Shown: positions 999 to 36,431 of the stretch, piece by piece | How positions within the stretch are numbered: the stretch's first letter is position 1 | Layout: every line of letters starts with the position of its first letter | Virus record (IMG/VR): IMGVR_UViG_3300028392_000148 | Span: 1-37,424 of that record | Length of the DNA stretch: 37,424 nucleotides | Strand: one strand, 5' to 3' | From: a virus | Notes under the pieces: model-generated | Databases searched by the model: none | What the model saw: only the letters and a program-made list of their open reading frames with translations | Told to the model about the DNA's origin: nothing | Translations under genes and position numbers: made by a program

Positions 999-1209
999 TG
1001 GCAATACAAACAATTATTTACGGTGAAGGCGGTTTCTGTGAAACCTGCGATGACACACACGACCATCCACTACACAACATTCTGGAGCAGATAGAAGTAG
1101 CAGATCCAGAACCGACAGCAGAGCAGAGAGCGAAAGAATCGGCCATGGCGAAACTAAGAGCGTTAGGATTAACTGATGAAGAGATACAGGCGATGATTGG
1201 TAAATAATG
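985..1209 (+). repeat. Right part of end overlap (matches 37203-37424)
   Basis: Homology between the two ends resumes at the last codons of the adhesin gene and runs through the small downstream gene to the portal ATG. Bases 1083-1209 are identical to 37298-37424, which is 127 bases and reaches the very last base of the window. Upstream of that, the two copies differ at several positions. An exact 127-base terminal match is what a k-mer assembler can leave at a graph junction (inference). Confidence 0.85.
998..1207 (+). CDS. Small protein with Cys/His-rich N-terminus (possible zinc binding)
   Basis: This 69-aa protein (MAIQTIIYGEGG...) starts at ATG 998 as TAATG with the adhesin gene; an upstream TTG at 983 is less likely. 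Residues about 13-26 contain FCETCDDTHDHPLH, a Cys-x2-Cys followed by several His, which could hold a metal. The second half is helical and ends with LTDEEIQAMIGK, a form typical of short phage head proteins. A second, slightly different copy is at 37216-37422. It sits between the adhesin and portal genes in one operon. The function is unknown; it could be a virion-assembly or fibre-attachment factor. Confidence 0.7.
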   Translation: MAIQTIIYGEGGFCETCDDTHDHPLHNILEQIEVADPEPTAEQRAKESAMAKLRALGLTDEEIQAMIGK

Positions 1210-3087
1210 GGACTACTAGATAACTTTGCCAAGCGTGTGGCAGACCAGATCACCAAAGCATCACCAGATGTTGCACCGATACCTGAGTGGCAGATGCAAC
1301 AGCAACGCTCATACGGTAACACCGTAGCTCTACCCAGAGATCCAAATCTGGCCAATGTGCCTTTCACACCAGGCTTGCCTTTAGTCCCTGGCTCTATCAA
1401 CCCAGTCAGACCTGATGGCAGACCTGACCCACGGCGATACGAATACCAAGTCGCTCAGAACATCAACATCACCGAAACACGGCTCATCCCTTTCAAGACT
1501 CTCAGGGCAGCAGCCGAACAGATAGACATCTTACGCCGATGTGTTGAAGTGATGAAACAGAAGATGGTTGGTCTAGAGTGGGACATCGTTCTCGGTGAAG
1601 ATGCTGTAGAGAAAGTCATGGCAGAGTCAGGTGAGAAGAACCGGATTAGAGCTATGTCTATCGCCAAAGACAAATTCGGTGAAGAGATCTCTAGAGCCAA
1701 GCAGTTTTGGGAAGTGCCAGACCTGAGCAACGGCCTGATCTTCGCTGACTGGCTAAACATGGCTTTAGAAGACATCCTAGTGTTAGATGCCTGGGCTGTA
1801 TGGCCACAGAAGACAGTAGGTGGTGACCTTCGTGGCTTGCAGGTGCTAGATGGCTCTACCATCAAACCTTTGATTGATGATCGTGGTATGCGACCATTAC
1901 CACCACAGCCAGCGTTCCAACAAATCTTGTATGGTTTCCCACGCTCAGAGTTCGCTGCTCCATCTGAAGGTGAAGATGTGGATGGCGAATTCACTAGCGA
2001 TGAACTGCAATACATGATCAGGAATCGCAGAACCACCACCATCTACGGTCTGTCACCAGTAGAGCGAGCATTACCTTTGGCTGACATTTATCTACGCCGT
2101 CAACAATGGATTCGTGCTGAATACACCGATGGCGTGTTACCTGAGCTCATGTTCAAGACTGATGCAAACTTCGGTAACAACCCTGATCTGCTCAGAGCCT
2201 ATGAGAACATCCTGAATGATGATTTGGCTGGTCAGACAGAACAGCGTAAGCGAGCCAGGTTACTACCTGCCGGACTTGACCCTGTGCAGATGGATGGCTA
2301 CGGCGAGAAGTTCAAAGATGTGTTAGATGAGTTCCTTGTGACCAGCATCTGTGGCCATTTCGGTGTCATGCCAACAGAAATTGGTTTCACACCTAAGACT
2401 GGTTTGGGTGGTGCAGGTCATCAGGCTGGTGAAGCCACATCATCTGAAGTGATTGGTTTGATTCCACTATCTCAATGGGTTGGCAGGATGCTGTCCCAAA
2501 TGTCTTATGTGTTCTTAGGTATGCCGAGAGAACTAGAGTTCAAGTTCATGCCATCTGACCGTAATGACTCTCAGGCTTTAGCTCAGACTATGGACAACAA
2601 AGTCCGTGGTGGCCGTATCACTCTCAATGAAGCCAGATCAGAAGAAGGTCTGCCACTCATAGATTCACCGTTAGCAGATCAACCTTTGTTTGTTGCTGGC
2701 TCTGCCGTATTTACTCTCACCGATGATGGTCTGATTCCTGTGACTGGTGGTGGCATAGATTCCAACAATTCTGGTGAAGCATCTGTTGCTGTGCCAACCG
2801 ATTCACAGCAGGAATTACCTGATGAGTCACCAGCAGACACTAGTGGCAAACCTGCCGAACCTGCTCCAGCAGAAGATGTTGATCAGAGTGAAGAAAGCCT
2901 GGACTTGATGGCACACAAAGCGGCCATTCAGGAATCTAAGGCTTTCATACGCTGGCTAAGAAAGTCACCAACCAGACCATTCACATTCACATCCATGCCA
3001 TCCACCTACGCTGAAACTCTAAACAAGTTCGTGGCACTAGGTGACTTTGATGGTGCTAGATGGTTTGCAGAGCGATACATCTCATGA
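1207..3087 (+). CDS. Portal protein
   Basis: This 626-aa protein should form the dodecameric portal ring at the capsid vertex through which terminase pumps DNA. It follows terL and precedes a MuF-type head protein, protease and capsid protein, the classic order. The sequence shows portal-type features: an N-terminal arm, a long alpha/beta region (for example KTLRAAAEQIDILRRCVEV), a stem-like segment ending near FRMPREL-type residues, and a low-complexity acidic/Pro/Ser tail around residues 530-575. There are no catalytic motifs, as expected. The start ATG at 1207 overlaps the upstream stop. Confidence rests on position plus family resemblance. Confidence 0.88.
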   Translation: MGLLDNFAKRVADQITKASPDVAPIPEWQMQQQRSYGNTVALPRDPNLANVPFTPGLPLVPGSINPVRPDGRPDPRRYEYQVAQNINITETRLIPFKTLRAAAEQIDILRRCVEVMKQKMVGLEWDIVLGEDAVEKVMAESGEKNRIRAMSIAKDKFGEEISRAKQFWEVPDLSNGLIFADWLNMALEDILVLDAWAVWPQKTVGGDLRGLQVLDGSTIKPLIDDRGMRPLPPQPAFQQILYGFPRSEFAAPSEGEDVDGEFTSDELQYMIRNRRTTTIYGLSPVERALPLADIYLRRQQWIRAEYTDGVLPELMFKTDANFGNNPDLLRAYENILNDDLAGQTEQRKRARLLPAGLDPVQMDGYGEKFKDVLDEFLVTSICGHFGVMPTEIGFTPKTGLGGAGHQAGEATSSEVIGLIPLSQWVGRMLSQMSYVFLGMPRELEFKFMPSDRNDSQALAQTMDNKVRGGRITLNEARSEEGLPLIDSPLADQPLFVAGSAVFTLTDDGLIPVTGGGIDSNNSGEASVAVPTDSQQELPDESPADTSGKPAEPAPAEDVDQSEESLDLMAHKAAIQESKAFIRWLRKSPTRPFTFTSMPSTYAETLNKFVALGDFDGARWFAERYIS

Positions 3088-4334
3088 CCTTCTGGCATCG
3101 GGTAGATGGAGCTCTGACTAGGACATCAGCCAGATACTCTACAGATCTCAGAGATGCTCTAGTCAAATCCATTGACATTCAGAAGATTGTTGATGACTGG
3201 ACAGCCACACATCCAGCCGGTGGAGAAACCACGCCACAACAGGCCAGAGAATGGGCGAGCATTCATGTTCGCTTTACTGATCAGGATGTGCTGACTGCTC
3301 TCCGAAACATTTACGGTGCAGGATACCTGTTAGGGTCAGATTCGGCTCAGGCTGCTGTAGCGTTTCAGCGACTGAAGAAAGCATCCAGCAATGATGACAT
3401 CTTTGGCAAACTACAGATTGACTGGAATACATGGACACCAGGTGGCAATCTGGGTGAAGTGCTAGTCAGGCCTAAAGGTGGTTTACAAGCGTTGCTAGAT
3501 AAAGCCAACGCCACTATCAGGGGATTGAATGCCACCACTATCAACAGGATTGGCACAAGGCTTGCTGATGCTTTGAAGACTGGTGCATCAGGTGCAGAGT
3601 TAGGTAAGAATTTGGAAGACATTGTGGGTGATCCTGTGCGAGCCTATACGATAGCCAACACCGAGATGAAGCGAGCCATGTCTAATGGAGCGATGGACAA
3701 CTACCGTGATCTGGGTGTGGAGAAGATGGAATGGTCTGCTCTAGATCCATGCGATTTGTGTGCAGAGTTTGATGGACAGCAGAGAGCTATCGGTGAAGAG
3801 TTTGGGGAAGATGTGACAGAGCCACCGGCTCACACTAACTGCCGATGCACAGTCATGCCTGTGCCACAGTTCACAGGTGAAGATGACAGTAGTGACGATG
3901 AAGAATCTGACTCTATTGAGATGTCTGCTCACATTGAGAAAGGTGTGCCAGGGCCGTGGGAAGTGGCCAGAGCATTGAGCCGTCTAGAAGTGCTACCTAA
4001 TCCAGCACATCCAGAACTAGATAATCCGTTGAAGTTTGTAGAGTCACCGTGGCAGGTTGTGCCTGTGCCTACTGTTGATCCGAACCTGTGGGATGATGCG
4101 ACTGTTGAAGTGCATGACCTAGATGAGCTCTATGCAACAGATCAATGGTTGAAGCGTAAGAAGATAGCGAAACACATTGAAGCGATGGGTCAGGCTATAA
4201 CACCGTTTAGATCTCTGCCACTTATCGCCATAGTAAATGAGCAGAGTATCATTATTGATGGGCATCACCGTTTGATGGCTGTCTGGCTTTTGGGTCAGCA
4301 ATCATCGGCAGCATACACAATCAGGATTGGATAG
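3084..4334 (+). CDS. MuF-type head morphogenesis protein fused to a ParB-like domain
   Basis: This is a minor capsid/head morphogenesis protein of 416 aa. I chose ATG 3084 because it forms ATGA with the portal stop; an in-frame ATG at 3060 is possible. The MuF signature is at residues about 222-256: LDPCDLC followed by PPAHTNCRC, the usual Cys/His cluster. After an acidic Asp/Ser linker, residues about 330-416 form a second domain with the sequence IIIDGHHRLMA, matching the DGHHR motif of ParB/sulfiredoxin-like folds. MuF proteins often carry variable C-terminal domains that may be delivered with the genome; ParB-like domains can act as nucleases or NTP-dependent clamps. Whether this one is active is unknown. 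Confidence 0.85.
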   Translation: MTFWHRVDGALTRTSARYSTDLRDALVKSIDIQKIVDDWTATHPAGGETTPQQAREWASIHVRFTDQDVLTALRNIYGAGYLLGSDSAQAAVAFQRLKKASSNDDIFGKLQIDWNTWTPGGNLGEVLVRPKGGLQALLDKANATIRGLNATTINRIGTRLADALKTGASGAELGKNLEDIVGDPVRAYTIANTEMKRAMSNGAMDNYRDLGVEKMEWSALDPCDLCAEFDGQQRAIGEEFGEDVTEPPAHTNCRCTVMPVPQFTGEDDSSDDEESDSIEMSAHIEKGVPGPWEVARALSRLEVLPNPAHPELDNPLKFVESPWQVVPVPTVDPNLWDDATVEVHDLDELYATDQWLKRKKIAKHIEAMGQAITPFRSLPLIAIVNEQSIIIDGHHRLMAVWLLGQQSSAAYTIRIG

Positions 4335-4622: not shown

Positions 4623-6359
4623 GTGAGTTTCAAGCCACCATCAGAAGTGCAGTCAAATGCCAAACGGGGATTAGAGCTCAGAGCCAAACACAACCGTGGT
4701 GGCACAGAAGTGGGTGTGGCCAGAGCCAGAGATTTATCTAATGGCACATCGGTATCGCTAGACACCATCCAACGGATGAATTCCTACTTTGCCAGACACG
4801 AAGTGGATAAGAAAGGCGAAGGTTGGGGAGTTGATTCAGCCGGATACATCGCCTGGCTGTTGTGGGGTGGAGATGCCGGATGGTCATGGGCTAAAGGTAT
4901 CCTTAGAGATGAAGAGAAGAAAGACAAAACAACAATGAGTGATTTCGCAACCAGTTATGCAGCCATCATCAAACAAGAGAAACAGGAAGATGGCACTCTA
5001 AAGGTTTACGGTAAGGCAACCGATGACAGCCTAGACATAGACAATCAGATCTGTGATGAGTCCTGGCTGAAGAGAGCCATGCCTGACTGGTTTCAGTCTG
5101 GTGGCAATGTGCGAGAACAGCACAGCAACATCGCTGCTGGTGTAGCCACAGACTACGAATCTAAAGCCGATGGACACTACATCACAGCACTAGTGGTTGA
5201 TCCGGTGAGTGTGAAGAAAGTAGAAACTGGTGTTCTAAAGGGTTTCAGTATCGGCATTAGAGCTCCACGCCTAATCAGAGATGAGAAGGCTGTGAATGGC
5301 CGTATCGTTGATGGACAGATCATTGAAGTGTCATTGGTTGATAGACCTGCGAACCCTAACGCTAAACTAATGTTAGCCAAAGCATCACAGTCAGGAGAAC
5401 TTATGGCAGTATCACAGACTAGCGTTCCATCACCAGCAGATGTGGCTCGCTTAATTGTTAAGAGCGATGACTCTATTGAAGAGAGTGTCACAGATGCACC
5501 AGCGACTGAAGAAGTAGTTGCTGATCAGGAAGCAGTAGTTGAAGAAATCGTTTCAGAGCCTGTTGCAGAAGTAGTGGCAGATGAGCCGATAGCAGAACCT
5601 GAATTATCTGAAGAAGATGTCCAGGCTGTTGAACTAATCAACGAAGTAAAGAGCATCCTGCCTACTCTAGTCAAATACGATCAGGCCACATTTGAGCGAG
5701 CCAGAGATGCACTATCTGATCTCATCATTGTTGAAGCGACAGAGCAGAAACAAGGCAGCGATGAGCGTGACAGCATCAAAGAGCTATTGCAGTCCATCAA
5801 GCATCTGTTCCATTGGTATGCAGGTGAAGTCGCTGAAGGTGAAGTTGTTTCACCAGATCCAGCCATCGTTGGAGATGATGCTGATGACATTTACATGGCA
5901 GCAGATAGTGAAGTCACTTGTATGTGTAAGTGTGACAAGTGTGCAGACTCTAAGGGATGCGATTTAGAAGATTGCAAATGTGACATGAGCAAATCTGTCA
6001 CAGCAGAACTAAACTTGACTACTGATGAAGGCGTGGTTGCTAACATCGTAGAGAAAGCGGTGGCACAAGCCAGAGTCGCTGTTACTGAAGAGATTGCATC
6101 TCTGCAATCTGCATTAAAGGCAGAGCAAGAGAAAGCAATTCAGTTGCAGGGTGATCTGGAAACCGCTCAGAAGGCAGTAGTCGCTGGTGGGCCGAAACGC
6201 TCTACCATCACAACCAAATCAAATGACTCATCAGAACTTCTAACCAAGTCTGCTGAGTATCTAATCAAAGCTAAGAACACGGCAGACCCTGTGCTGGCAC
6301 AAGGCTATCGTGACCTGGCTAAAGACCTTCGCAAACAAGCGGAGAAAGGTAAACAATGA
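4623..6359 (+). CDS. Prohead protease fused to scaffold-like region, with Cys cluster
   Basis: This 578-aa protein starts at GTG 4623. Residues 1-98 are a helical, Trp/Gly-rich N-terminal domain (NAKRGLELRAKHNRGG ... YIAWLLWGGDAGW). Residues about 100-250 resemble HK97/XkdF-type prohead proteases: a candidate His near residue 165 (REQHS), a candidate Ser near 209 (KGFSIGIRA), and the conserved EVSLVDRPANP. The rest looks like a scaffold: an acidic Val/Glu/Ala-rich stretch (about 285-330), helices, and a coiled coil (about 480-525). Residues 433-453 hold seven cysteines (C433, 435, 437, 440, 446, 451, 453), unusual for a scaffold. It lies directly before, and overlaps, the capsid gene. It should cleave itself and capsid arms during maturation. 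Confidence 0.82.
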   Translation: MSFKPPSEVQSNAKRGLELRAKHNRGGTEVGVARARDLSNGTSVSLDTIQRMNSYFARHEVDKKGEGWGVDSAGYIAWLLWGGDAGWSWAKGILRDEEKKDKTTMSDFATSYAAIIKQEKQEDGTLKVYGKATDDSLDIDNQICDESWLKRAMPDWFQSGGNVREQHSNIAAGVATDYESKADGHYITALVVDPVSVKKVETGVLKGFSIGIRAPRLIRDEKAVNGRIVDGQIIEVSLVDRPANPNAKLMLAKASQSGELMAVSQTSVPSPADVARLIVKSDDSIEESVTDAPATEEVVADQEAVVEEIVSEPVAEVVADEPIAEPELSEEDVQAVELINEVKSILPTLVKYDQATFERARDALSDLIIVEATEQKQGSDERDSIKELLQSIKHLFHWYAGEVAEGEVVSPDPAIVGDDADDIYMAADSEVTCMCKCDKCADSKGCDLEDCKCDMSKSVTAELNLTTDEGVVANIVEKAVAQARVAVTEEIASLQSALKAEQEKAIQLQGDLETAQKAVVAGGPKRSTITTKSNDSSELLTKSAEYLIKAKNTADPVLAQGYRDLAKDLRKQAEKGKQ

Positions 6360-7999
6360 ACACTCCAAAGGCTTCAGACCTTTTCGGTGATGCCACATCA
6401 CCTAAGAAGGCCGCTCAACTACATGAAGAGTATGTAGCAGAGCTAAACAAGTCGCTTGCTAACCCAAGCAATGTTCCTGGTCAAGCACCTATGGCTGATC
6501 CAATGTCACAGATTGAATCACTAGTAGCAAACAAGTCACTATCTGCTGAAGCAGTAGGTGCATTGAATGTTGCTCTATCTGCACAGCGATCAGCATCAGC
6601 AGACATGATCAAGGACATCACACTAACCAACCCACTATCCAGCTCATTCGCAGCGTTTGACCTTGAAGCACCAGCCAAGTTGCTGACTCCAAGACCAACA
6701 CCGCTTCGTAACAAGATTGCTCGCAAGAAGGGTGTAGGAACATCACACCGTATCAAGAGAATCACCGGATACACAGGAACTGGCACAGGCGGTCAGGGTA
6801 ACATCTGGCCTGGTATTACTGAAACCACAACCAACACCTTTGGTTCAATCGCTTTTGAGCGTGGCCCAAAGATCAGCTTTACTGCTGACGATGTTGTGAC
6901 ACCATACTTCAGTTACTCACTATCTGACAGCGTTTCATTTGACGCTAACTTCTCAGGTTTGGGTTACCAGGATCTACGCCAGCTATCATCTACCAGCACC
7001 TTGTATGCAACCATGTTGATGGAAGAAAGACAACTTCTATTCAGCCGTGGAACAGCATCAGGTCTATCAGGTGCATTGGCCGCTCCAACCGTGACTCTAG
7101 GTGCAAGATCAGCAGCAGCAGGTGAAACTGCACTTGGTGCAGCCACTTACTATGTTTACGCAACCAGCGATGCAGGTGCTTTCGGTGAGTCTGTTCTTTC
7201 AACAGTCGCATCTCAGGCAGTCACATCAGGTCAGGTTCTGACCATTGCTGTGAACAATGTTTCTGGATCTCTAGCAACCAAGGTCTATGTTGGAACTGCT
7301 ACAGGTGCAGCAAACGCTCACTATGTTGGTCGCATTACTTCATTGGGTGGTGTTCTTCAGGGAGCAGCATCTCTAGTGAACACAAATGACAACCTAGTGT
7401 TCAACACAACCGGAACTCTAGCATCTACTATCTCAGCAGACACATCAGCATACTCAACTGGGTATGACGGTATCTTGGCTCAGATTTTCGCTGGTGGAAC
7501 AGTAAATGAGATTAACTCTCAGTTCTCTACTGCCAACCCAGGTGCAGAATTCCAGACCGTATTCAGCACTCTATACGACAGCGTAAAGGCTGACCCAGAT
7601 GAGATTCTTCTCAATGGATCAGACCGTAAGCAGTTGTCTGATGCAATCAAGAACGGTTCAACCGCTAACTACCGTCTAAACCTAACTCAGTCAGAAACTG
7701 GTGACTATGTAGGTGGAGCAGTAATTGGTGGTCTGCACAACGAGATCACAGGCAAACTTGTTGATCTAACTGTTCACCCATGGTTGACTCAGGGTGTAGC
7801 TCCAGTCTTGTCATACACACTACCTATTCCTGACACCGAAGTGTCTGATGTTTGGGCTGTTGTGAATGTTCAGGACTACATGGGAATCCAATGGCCTGTT
7901 ACTCAGTTCGCCTACGAATTCTCAACTTACTACCGTGGAACATTTGTTGGATACGCTCCAGCATGGAACGGTTTAGTAACTGGTATCAAGTCAGCCTAA
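6356..7999 (+). CDS. Major capsid protein, HK97-fold, with Ig/FN3-like insertion
   Basis: This 547-aa protein overlaps the protease gene by ATGA. Residues 1-105 are helical, like a delta or scaffolding arm. Residues about 110-240 and 355-547 show the capsid pattern (for example TPRPTPLRNKIARKKG and FQTVFSTLYDSVKADPDEILLNG). Residues about 242-352 are a separate beta-rich module (YYVYATSDAGAFGES, KVYVGTATG) that resembles FN3/Ig-like surface domains inserted in capsid loops. It is followed by a clear terminator, fitting strong expression. An HK97-like fold is inferred from the neighbours and sequence style. Confidence 0.9.
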   Translation: MNTPKASDLFGDATSPKKAAQLHEEYVAELNKSLANPSNVPGQAPMADPMSQIESLVANKSLSAEAVGALNVALSAQRSASADMIKDITLTNPLSSSFAAFDLEAPAKLLTPRPTPLRNKIARKKGVGTSHRIKRITGYTGTGTGGQGNIWPGITETTTNTFGSIAFERGPKISFTADDVVTPYFSYSLSDSVSFDANFSGLGYQDLRQLSSTSTLYATMLMEERQLLFSRGTASGLSGALAAPTVTLGARSAAAGETALGAATYYVYATSDAGAFGESVLSTVASQAVTSGQVLTIAVNNVSGSLATKVYVGTATGAANAHYVGRITSLGGVLQGAASLVNTNDNLVFNTTGTLASTISADTSAYSTGYDGILAQIFAGGTVNEINSQFSTANPGAEFQTVFSTLYDSVKADPDEILLNGSDRKQLSDAIKNGSTANYRLNLTQSETGDYVGGAVIGGLHNEITGKLVDLTVHPWLTQGVAPVLSYTLPIPDTEVSDVWAVVNVQDYMGIQWPVTQFAYEFSTYYRGTFVGYAPAWNGLVTGIKSA

Positions 8000-8077: not shown

Positions 8078-8341
8078 ATGGAGCGACTATTAGTTCCAAA
8101 TGATGGTGTCAAAGGTATTGATGTGACCACAGAGCGTGGGACTATTAAATACGATGCTGATGCTACTGGTGCAGTTCATGTTGATAACCCTAAACACATC
8201 AGGCAGATGGTTTCTGAAGGTTTCACAAGGGCCACAGGTGTCTTCGGTTTCGGATCAGCAGGGACACCTTGCACCGGTTGTGGTTTCGCTAGTGTATTCA
8301 CCAAATACACTTGTCCTAAGTGTGGAGTAGAGAATGGCTAA
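8078..8341 (+). CDS. Small zinc-ribbon head protein
   Basis: This 87-aa protein has a beta-type N-terminal half and a C-terminal ribbon with two CxxC pairs (PCTGCGF at about residues 64-68, TCPKCG at about 80-84). The start ATG 8078 is preceded by AGGAAGG. Small proteins of this kind are common between capsid and adaptor genes in actinobacterial phages, but I know of no firm function; a capsid-associated or connector role is plausible. It overlaps the adaptor gene by 8 bases. Confidence 0.72.
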   Translation: MERLLVPNDGVKGIDVTTERGTIKYDADATGAVHVDNPKHIRQMVSEGFTRATGVFGFGSAGTPCTGCGFASVFTKYTCPKCGVENG

Positions 8342-34729: not shown

Positions 34730-35185
34730 ATGGCAAGACCTAGAAACAGACCACCAAAGCCTGAAGTGCTGGCGAAAGAAGCCGAAGTAGTCAAACTCAG
34801 GCGTGGCGGATTAACCTGGGATCTCATCGCCAAACAGGTTGGCTACAAGCATGGATCATCAGCACAAGATGCTTATGTCAGAGCCAGCCAACGCATAGTC
34901 AGAGATGACATAGAAGCCATCCGAAAGATGGAAGAAGACCGGCTAGACATGGCTCAAGCCAGCATCTGGTCTAAAGTGATGCAAGGTGAACTCACAGCCA
35001 TCAACACATTCCTTCGTATCCAAGAACGCCGTGCCAAACTTTTGGGGCTAGACCAGCCACTCAAACAACAGATTGAAGTGACCAACTATGACGGTGACAC
35101 CATTGATGCAGAAGTCCGAAGACTCGTTGAACTCCTTGATAGCAGCTCGCAGAGTGAAATGGACTCATCTCCAAGCCAGAGCTAA
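34730..35185 (+). CDS. Terminase small subunit
   Basis: This 151-aa protein opens with a basic Pro-rich segment, then an HTH (about residues 27-45: GGLTWDLIAKQVGYKHGSS), a helical oligomerisation part (DIEAIRKMEEDRLDMAQASIWSKVM), and a polar Ser-rich end. This is the form of TerS proteins, which bind the packaging site and load the large subunit. It overlaps terL in another frame by about 30-100 bases depending on the terL start. Confidence 0.82.
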   Translation: MARPRNRPPKPEVLAKEAEVVKLRRGGLTWDLIAKQVGYKHGSSAQDAYVRASQRIVRDDIEAIRKMEEDRLDMAQASIWSKVMQGELTAINTFLRIQERRAKLLGLDQPLKQQIEVTNYDGDTIDAEVRRLVELLDSSSQSEMDSSPSQS

Positions 35186-36431
35186 CCAGATACCATCTGA
35201 CGGTGACTGGCGTGTGTGGCTACTGCTGGCTGGCCGTGGATTCGGTAAGACCAGATCTGCTGCTGAATGGCTTGCTTTTGAAGCATCTCGGAAACGCAAC
35301 ACCAGGTGGGCGATAGTCGCACCAACATTTGCTGATGCTAGAGATACCTGTGCCGAAGGTGTGTCAGGTGTAGTGCAGATCCTGAGAGAGTATGGGACAC
35401 TCAAAGACTACAACCGGTCTATCGGTGAGATAGTGCTGACCAACAAGAGTCGCATCAAACTCTATTCTGGTGAAGAACCTAACCGGCTTCGTGGGCCACA
35501 GTTCCATGGTGGCTGGTTTGATGAGCTCGCATCATTCAAGTATGCAGATGCATGGGATCAATACCAGTTCGGCCTACGCTTAGGTGACAGACCACAGACC
35601 GTGGTCACAACCACACCTAGACCAGTCAAACTAATCAAAGACCTGGTGGCTAGAGAAGGCATAGAGATTGTCCGTGGATCAACATTTGATAACGCCAAGA
35701 ATCTCGCTGAAACAGCACTCGCTGAAATGCGACTCAGGTATGAAGGCACTCGCCTAGGTAGGCAAGAGCTATACGGTGAAATTGTTGATGATGTGGATGG
35801 AGCGTTATGGACTCACGCCATCATAGATCAAGAGCGTGTCACAGAGTATCCACCACTCATGCGAATCGTTGTAGCGATAGACCCTGCCGTAACATCAGGT
35901 GACCAGTCAGATGAAACAGGTATTGTGGTCGCTGGCATGACTAGTGACGGCCACTACTATGTGCTGAAAGACTTAACTCTGAGAGCATCACCAGAGAAAT
36001 GGGCGAGAGTAGCAGTCCAGGCTTTCCACGACTACAACGCTGATCGTGTCATCGGTGAAACCAACAATGGTGGTGACATGATAGAACTTCTGCTCAGGCA
36101 AGTAGATGCTAGTGTGCCATACAAGAAGGTGACAGCCACTAGGGGCAAACTGGTGAGAGCCGAACCGGTAGCAGCATTGTATGAACAGCGTAGAGCTCAC
36201 CATGTCGGCCTGTTTCCAGAACTAGAAGATCAGATGTGCAACTACACGCCTGACTCAAACACTTCACCTGACCGTATGGATGCGATGGTGTGGGCTATGC
36301 ATGAGCTAATGGAATCACAGTCCAGTATTATGGGTTTAGCATCACTAGCGAAATTCTGTCCATCATGTAGGATGCCGATCACTCGGTCTGCGACTATCTG
36401 CACTTACTGCTCAACACCTTTGGAGAACTAA
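35088..36431 (+). CDS. Terminase large subunit with C-terminal zinc ribbon
   Basis: This 447-aa protein (from ATG 35088; ATG 35106 or GTG 35154 are possible) is the packaging motor. It has Walker A AGRGFGKTRSA (about residues 48-58), Walker B WFDELA (about 143), and the nuclease Asp in VAIDPAVTSGDQSDE (about 264-278), followed by a further nuclease region. After the usual end, residues 424-441 form a zinc-ribbon-like tail (C424, C427, C438, C441), which I do not recall from typical TerL proteins. It is followed by the adhesin gene (TAATG). Confidence 0.92.
   Translation: MTVTPLMQKSEDSLNSLIAARRVKWTHLQARANQIPSDGDWRVWLLLAGRGFGKTRSAAEWLAFEASRKRNTRWAIVAPTFADARDTCAEGVSGVVQILREYGTLKDYNRSIGEIVLTNKSRIKLYSGEEPNRLRGPQFHGGWFDELASFKYADAWDQYQFGLRLGDRPQTVVTTTPRPVKLIKDLVAREGIEIVRGSTFDNAKNLAETALAEMRLRYEGTRLGRQELYGEIVDDVDGALWTHAIIDQERVTEYPPLMRIVVAIDPAVTSGDQSDETGIVVAGMTSDGHYYVLKDLTLRASPEKWARVAVQAFHDYNADRVIGETNNGGDMIELLLRQVDASVPYKKVTATRGKLVRAEPVAALYEQRRAHHVGLFPELEDQMCNYTPDSNTSPDRMDAMVWAMHELMESQSSIMGLASLAKFCPSCRMPITRSATICTYCSTPLEN

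Follow-up and report, generated by a model that had tools for sequence, protein, structure and literature searches.

The prohead protease gene of an uncultured bacterial virus encodes seven Cys within 21 residues of what is probably its scaffold part; we tentatively read this cluster as a short module, most likely zinc-binding, that would staple an otherwise disordered stretch of scaffold and be cut off at maturation. Among relatives, Cys clusters recur in the same slot, one chelating motif is exchanged there for another, and a Lys-Ser (KS) dipeptide behind the slot is conserved. The DNA analyzed, here called the window, is the 37,424-base IMG/VR record IMGVR_UViG_3300028392_000148; the genes and protein regions to which the argument refers are as follows.

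1207-3087, portal gene (PF04860)
3060..4334, + strand, Mu F-like minor head protein gene (PF04233, E 1.6e-14)
4623..6359, + strand, protease-scaffold fusion gene (578 aa, GTG start)
4632..4928, + strand, N-terminal helical domain, phrog_2859-like, with no function assigned (residues 4-102; E 2e-20; pLDDT mostly 78-95)
4944..5342, + strand, prohead protease domain (residues 108-240; Foldseek match to T4 gp21)
5352..5609, + strand, acidic disordered linker (residues 244-329; pLDDT mostly <50)
5610..5834, + strand, helix pair preceding the module slot, with the family motif WYxGE (residues 330-404)
5919..5981, + strand, seven-Cys module C-x-C-x-C-x2-C-x5-C-x4-C-x-C (residues 433-453)
6027..6188, + strand, long helix of the C-terminal scaffold, a probable coiled coil in the predicted model (residues 469-522)
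6228..6353, + strand, C-terminal helix pair (residues 536-577; pLDDT mostly >75)
6356..7999, + strand, capsid protein gene (phrog_13692, E 1e-81)

The stop codon of the fusion gene overlaps the ATG of the gene that follows (ATGA at 6356-6359), and the product of the latter is assigned as the major capsid protein by position and homologues. The fusion protein matches phrog_21715 (E 5e-28) and, at E of about 1e-5, the head maturation protease families phrog_80 and phrog_3270. An AlphaFold model of the full protein (39 aligned rows; mean pLDDT 67) orders its parts as N-terminal helices, protease, acidic disordered linker, helix pair, disordered Cys stretch, long helix, and helix pair. Its best solved Foldseek match is T4 gp21 (5jbl_A, E 2e-4, probability 1.00), with herpesvirus proteases next at weaker scores. 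H167 and S209, a candidate catalytic pair by their role in the S78 family, are invariant (39/39 rows) in a non-redundant alignment drawn from the best 80 of 582 relatives. The window protein falls below the Pfam PF04586 (S78) cut-off (14.6 bits vs 21) and the relative L326 passes it (24.3 bits); the S78-type assignment made here for the window protein refers to its fold and to the position of its gene and does not extend to the Pfam S78 model. A fusion of maturation protease and scaffold, as proposed in a prior sequence-only reading of this DNA, is upheld by the T4 gp21 fold, the adjoining capsid gene, and the long C-terminal helix; place and shape both suggest that the C-terminal part is scaffold.

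Other features of the window and of related proteins were observed in passing. The small gene right behind the capsid gene (8078-8341) has a zinc-ribbon-like CxxC...CxxC end (8270-8332) with weak Pfam matches, and the terminase large subunit (ORF 35088-36431) likewise has a zinc-ribbon-like end at 36354-36422 (PF13240 E 0.006, below cut-off). A close relative (L013, 6001-8292) contains a linker insert of ~180 residues with a GRFT stretch that is missing in the window protein. In Roseobacter phage CRP-811 (L402, 2489-4939), an 816-residue protein with the annotation major capsid protein begins with a phrog_2859-like domain and resembles a fusion of domain, protease, and capsid protein.

The Cys residues of the 578-residue fusion protein lie at positions 144, 433, 435, 437, 440, 446, 451, and 453. 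The initial count of seven Cys within residues 433-453 is thus exact, and these are seven of the protein's eight; the coordinates first given for the cluster (5919-5983, + strand) hold at the start and run two bases past the last Cys codon (5981) at the end. No such concentration, seven Cys in 21 residues, arose in 20,000 shuffles of the protein. A frame or translation artefact was considered and discarded, because in-frame homology continues on both flanks across the 39 aligned rows from the best 80 of 582 relatives. Codons were compared between the window and five homologues picked for identical Cys spacing (15 pairs). Among these spacing-matched rows the Cys codons differ by 45 synonymous changes, the absence of nonsynonymous ones following from the choice of rows by Cys spacing; the other 14 codons differ by 50 synonymous and 92 nonsynonymous changes.

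Attempts to place the module by structure or profile gave little. The cluster stretch has pLDDT mostly <50 in the full-protein model, and modeling the module alone with 73 rows gave a mean pLDDT of 54 and no confident fold. With E values allowed up to 10, the 45-residue module stretch had no match in Pfam, in a search whose HMMER filters can lose short matches, and phrog_31437 (E 0.07) was the only match in PHROGs.

The family was sampled by a scan of IMG/VR from which the best 80 of 582 relatives were kept, one of the six search peptides being the Cys stretch itself. Near-identical and truncated rows were dropped (6 of 81 ORFs were without the GPxR motif), and the resulting set of 39 rows includes the window. 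In these rows from the best 80 of 582, the seven Cys columns are occupied in 14, 14, 17, 31, 21, 21, and 33 rows; 38 rows have at least one Cys in the slot, and 32 have a 25-aa stretch beyond residue 255 with four or more. Density in the same rows, again from the best 80 of 582, is 5.48 Cys per 100 aa in the slot, 0.45 in the N-terminal part plus protease, 0.37 in the linker, and 0.00 in the coil. The expectation that scaffold regions are Cys-poor is therefore correct for coil and linker but fails for the slot; since the slot is regularly Cys-rich in the family, the cluster is no oddity of one phage.

Several forms fill this slot: the seven-Cys form; a six-Cys-one-His form, CxCxxCxxC...GGC....C..H, in which the last Cys is replaced by His to give a C-x2-H end; CxxC-x(n)-CxC; a short CLECGC..P...HG; a helix-loop-helix with two Cys; and combinations of these. 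Conservation of the Cys in homologues, which the sequence-only reading had set as its test, thus fails for the exact seven positions (14 to 33 of the 39 rows) and holds for having a cluster. By the aligned rows, the seven-Cys arrangement is a trait of the window's subclade and some Cys cluster is the family rule.

A second scan, with a pair of protease motifs as its sole queries, is free of the bias introduced by a Cys-stretch query; 6 of its 80 loci had no recognizable protease end, and removal of duplicates, 3'-open ORFs, and rows >90% alike left a set of 55. At least four Cys in 25 aa occur in the scaffold part of 38 of these 55, and at least three in 46. The same density of at least four was reached in none of the 55 protease parts, in none of 66 capsid proteins, and, over 200 runs of shuffled scaffolds, in an average of 2.1 and a maximum of 7 of 55.

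The history of the slot was followed on a protease-domain tree of 54 rows and 135 columns; the 54 were selected from the 119 of 123 rows whose part behind the protease was 260 aa or longer. Cys types were labeled by motif, except that L017, first labeled none, was assigned manually to the CxxC-x11-CxxC type; DnaJ-type rows are absent because the protease-start motif missed them. The window's supported clade of 13 rows comprises seven seven-Cys rows, four CxxC-CxC, one CxxC-x11-CxxC, and one with none, counts that include two rows found by module patterns (L165 and L167), so that the tree favors the module; without these two, the clade comprises five seven-Cys, four CxxC-CxC, one CxxC-CxxC, and one with none. 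Two well-supported sister pairs are of unlike type (L006/L165 and L017/L018). Across the tree, at least 15 gains or losses are required for the seven-ligand form and at least 6 for Cys modules of any kind; the module is in some cases lost and in others replaced.

These shifts bear on what is a somewhat unlikely reading of the cluster, that it is a passenger: small domains would be shuffled into the linkers of head proteins and tolerated because the scaffold is discarded, the cluster itself having no specific role in assembly. Consistent with this, many small domains unrelated to one another occupy these linkers, namely DUF5872, helix-loop-helix D, several Cys modules, and stretches of DUF6582-like and 'GRFT' type (working names, DUF5872 excepted), and the window's own sister on the tree, L010, is without the cluster. 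The slot is likewise without a cluster in relatives from a Mycobacterium MAG (L319) and a Streptomyces genome (L320), and the module is therefore dispensable to the fold class. However, most scaffolds have Cys clusters, and these are often refilled by another chelating form rather than simply lost; the spacing-matched rows, picked by that spacing, also keep their Cys where most other positions change. Replacement by another chelating form argues for metal binding, and the metal binding suggested at the outset is in this way indirectly supported within the window's own clade, where other Cys clusters refill the slot. The conserved trait, as far as these alignments tell, is the capacity to chelate and not one sequence.

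The second conserved element is the KS dipeptide, which occurs behind the module and twice in the N-terminal region of the capsid protein.

5991..5996, + strand, K457-S458 right behind the module, probable protease site
6449-6454, + strand, second capsid KS, residues 32-33 (61/66 homologues)
6533..6538, + strand, capsid K60-S61 in the N-terminal region, probable cleavage site (66/66 homologues)

The position after the module is KS in 33 of the 39 rows from the best 80 of 582 relatives, KA in 4, KN in 1, and a gap in 1. Both capsid KS dipeptides precede the part that matches the family profile and are likely maturation sites. Because KS follows the Cys patch in 33 of 39 rows and is invariant in the N-terminal region of the capsid protein, it is probably a cleavage site; we infer that the protease of the fusion gene would cut there, one of the cuts following the Cys module. 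Residue 103 of the HK97 capsid protein is Lys. The mature HK97 capsid protein starts at Ser104, according to a figure legend of PMC5701804. The dipeptide is also enriched elsewhere in the fusion proteins and is therefore not special to the module; observed against expected numbers are 73 vs 47 in the N-terminal part, 87 vs 33 in the linker, 79 vs 24 in the slot, and 87 vs 40 in the coil.

Taken with the capacity to chelate, this arrangement leads to the zinc module that we tentatively favor. The gene product would combine a prohead protease with an internal scaffold, and the module would form a folded knot where the scaffold is otherwise disordered, between its helix pair and coil. Two metal ions with one ligand in common would fit the seven thiols, or the six thiols and single His of the sister forms. 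Such a knot, acting during head assembly in the reducing cytoplasm, could make scaffold chains more rigid, bring them together in pairs, or keep the adjoining KS site in position; at maturation the protease would cut behind it, and the severed piece would be cleared away.

Phage scaffolds are regarded as acidic, helical, and metal-free, and no paper listed in full-text searches of the open-licence literature has a title or abstract that reports a Cys- or zinc-containing module in one. If real, a family of scaffolds in which zinc-type modules are retained and exchanged would place metal among the factors that assemble phage heads. The protease-scaffold linker is also seen to be an exchange site for tiny domains. 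A wider proposal, which we consider unlikely, is that of a metal-dependent scaffold, in which interchangeable zinc-chelating mini-modules set scaffold pairing and the timing of cleavage, and head assembly depends on host zinc.

The six-Cys-one-His module also occurs in other phages, in proteins without a recognizable protease (L243, L262, L283, L305, and L310), and the module therefore works outside a scaffold. These proteins have about 260-540 residues when complete, some on contigs of about 90-120 kb; their other parts include phrog_2859-like, DUF5872, and CW.GY...VPNCVP stretches. No capsid gene was recognized by eye beside the module protein in L243, L283, L305, and L310. Separate module proteins, together with the KS sites that flank modules, are what might be expected if the Cys peptide were cargo: the protease would cut at KS and leave the peptide inside the head, either for injection or as a metal buffer around the genome, with the T4 internal proteins as an analogue. 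We consider this improbable; in the window protein, the nearest upstream KS is at K343, and the excised piece would therefore carry the helix pair too.

The ligands themselves bear on a redox or metal switch, in which the cytoplasmic thiols would be free or metal-loaded and stress would produce disulfides or metal loss, gating scaffold dimerization or cleavage. Seven closely spaced thiols do adjoin a conserved KS; however, the exchange of the last Cys for His in sister forms fits metal better than disulfide, the number of Cys is odd, and such a switch appears distinctly improbable.

A tblastn search of 50,697 phage records with the 45-residue stretches of the window and of L283 was negative up to an E of 1, and the module is lacking in the 14 ORFs of 11 named phage records that match relatives. 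Three Cys lie in the scaffold part of the NootNoot protease, and the gene of DSL-LC01 listed as a capsid maturation protease (L408, 647-3202) has a different four-Cys stretch. Matches to the seven-Cys pattern outside the family were mostly Cys-rich low-complexity ORFs and were dropped for want of a blastp match to the window protein. In the genome collection, five loci were found, of which L322 (a short match in a Gallionellaceae MAG) was left out. One of these loci, L321 from Actinocrispum wychmicini, has a zinc-ribbon stretch in its linker (PF13240 E 5e-5, below cut-off) and, used as a query, gave one matching record, identical to itself. The few genome relatives lie mainly in Actinomycetota; the phage group is mostly uncultured.

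Many remoter scaffolds carry a DnaJ-like CxxCxGxG pair soon behind the protease; the pair was observed in the linkers of L326, L328, L334, L354, L356, and L358, with PF00684 at E 0.001 (below cut-off) in L326. These weak Pfam matches of remoter relatives' motifs, to DnaJ CXXCXGXG and zinc ribbon, also indirectly favor metal binding. That the window module is itself a degenerate DnaJ-type chaperone element, binding unfolded capsid protein or recruiting host DnaK, is highly improbable, since CxxCxGxG pairs do occur in remote relatives' polyproteins of like kind but the window module has neither that pair nor a Pfam DnaJ match.

Compared with known systems, the window's seven-Cys module shares with the DnaJ (PF00684) and zinc-ribbon (PF13240) motifs of relatives the placement of a Cys cluster in the linker of such a polyprotein. 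Its spacing, in contrast, is CxC, CxC, CxxC, CxC, without paired CxxC knuckles (it has one CxxC only, and no Pfam zinc-ribbon match), and it lies behind the helix pair, whereas the DnaJ-type clusters occupy another slot close behind the protease. Bacterial metallothioneins have a dense CxC and CxxC pattern. The module shows a likewise dense pattern, with sister forms that end in C-x2-H; unlike metallothioneins, however, it comprises 21 residues inside a large structural protein and has no Pfam match. Protease-scaffold fusions are also found in herpesvirus assemblin precursors. With the T4 gp21/S78 family, the window protein has in common the predicted fold, a place before the capsid gene, and scaffold-like helices behind the protease; to these it adds the Cys-rich module within the scaffold and the N-terminal phrog_2859-like domain.
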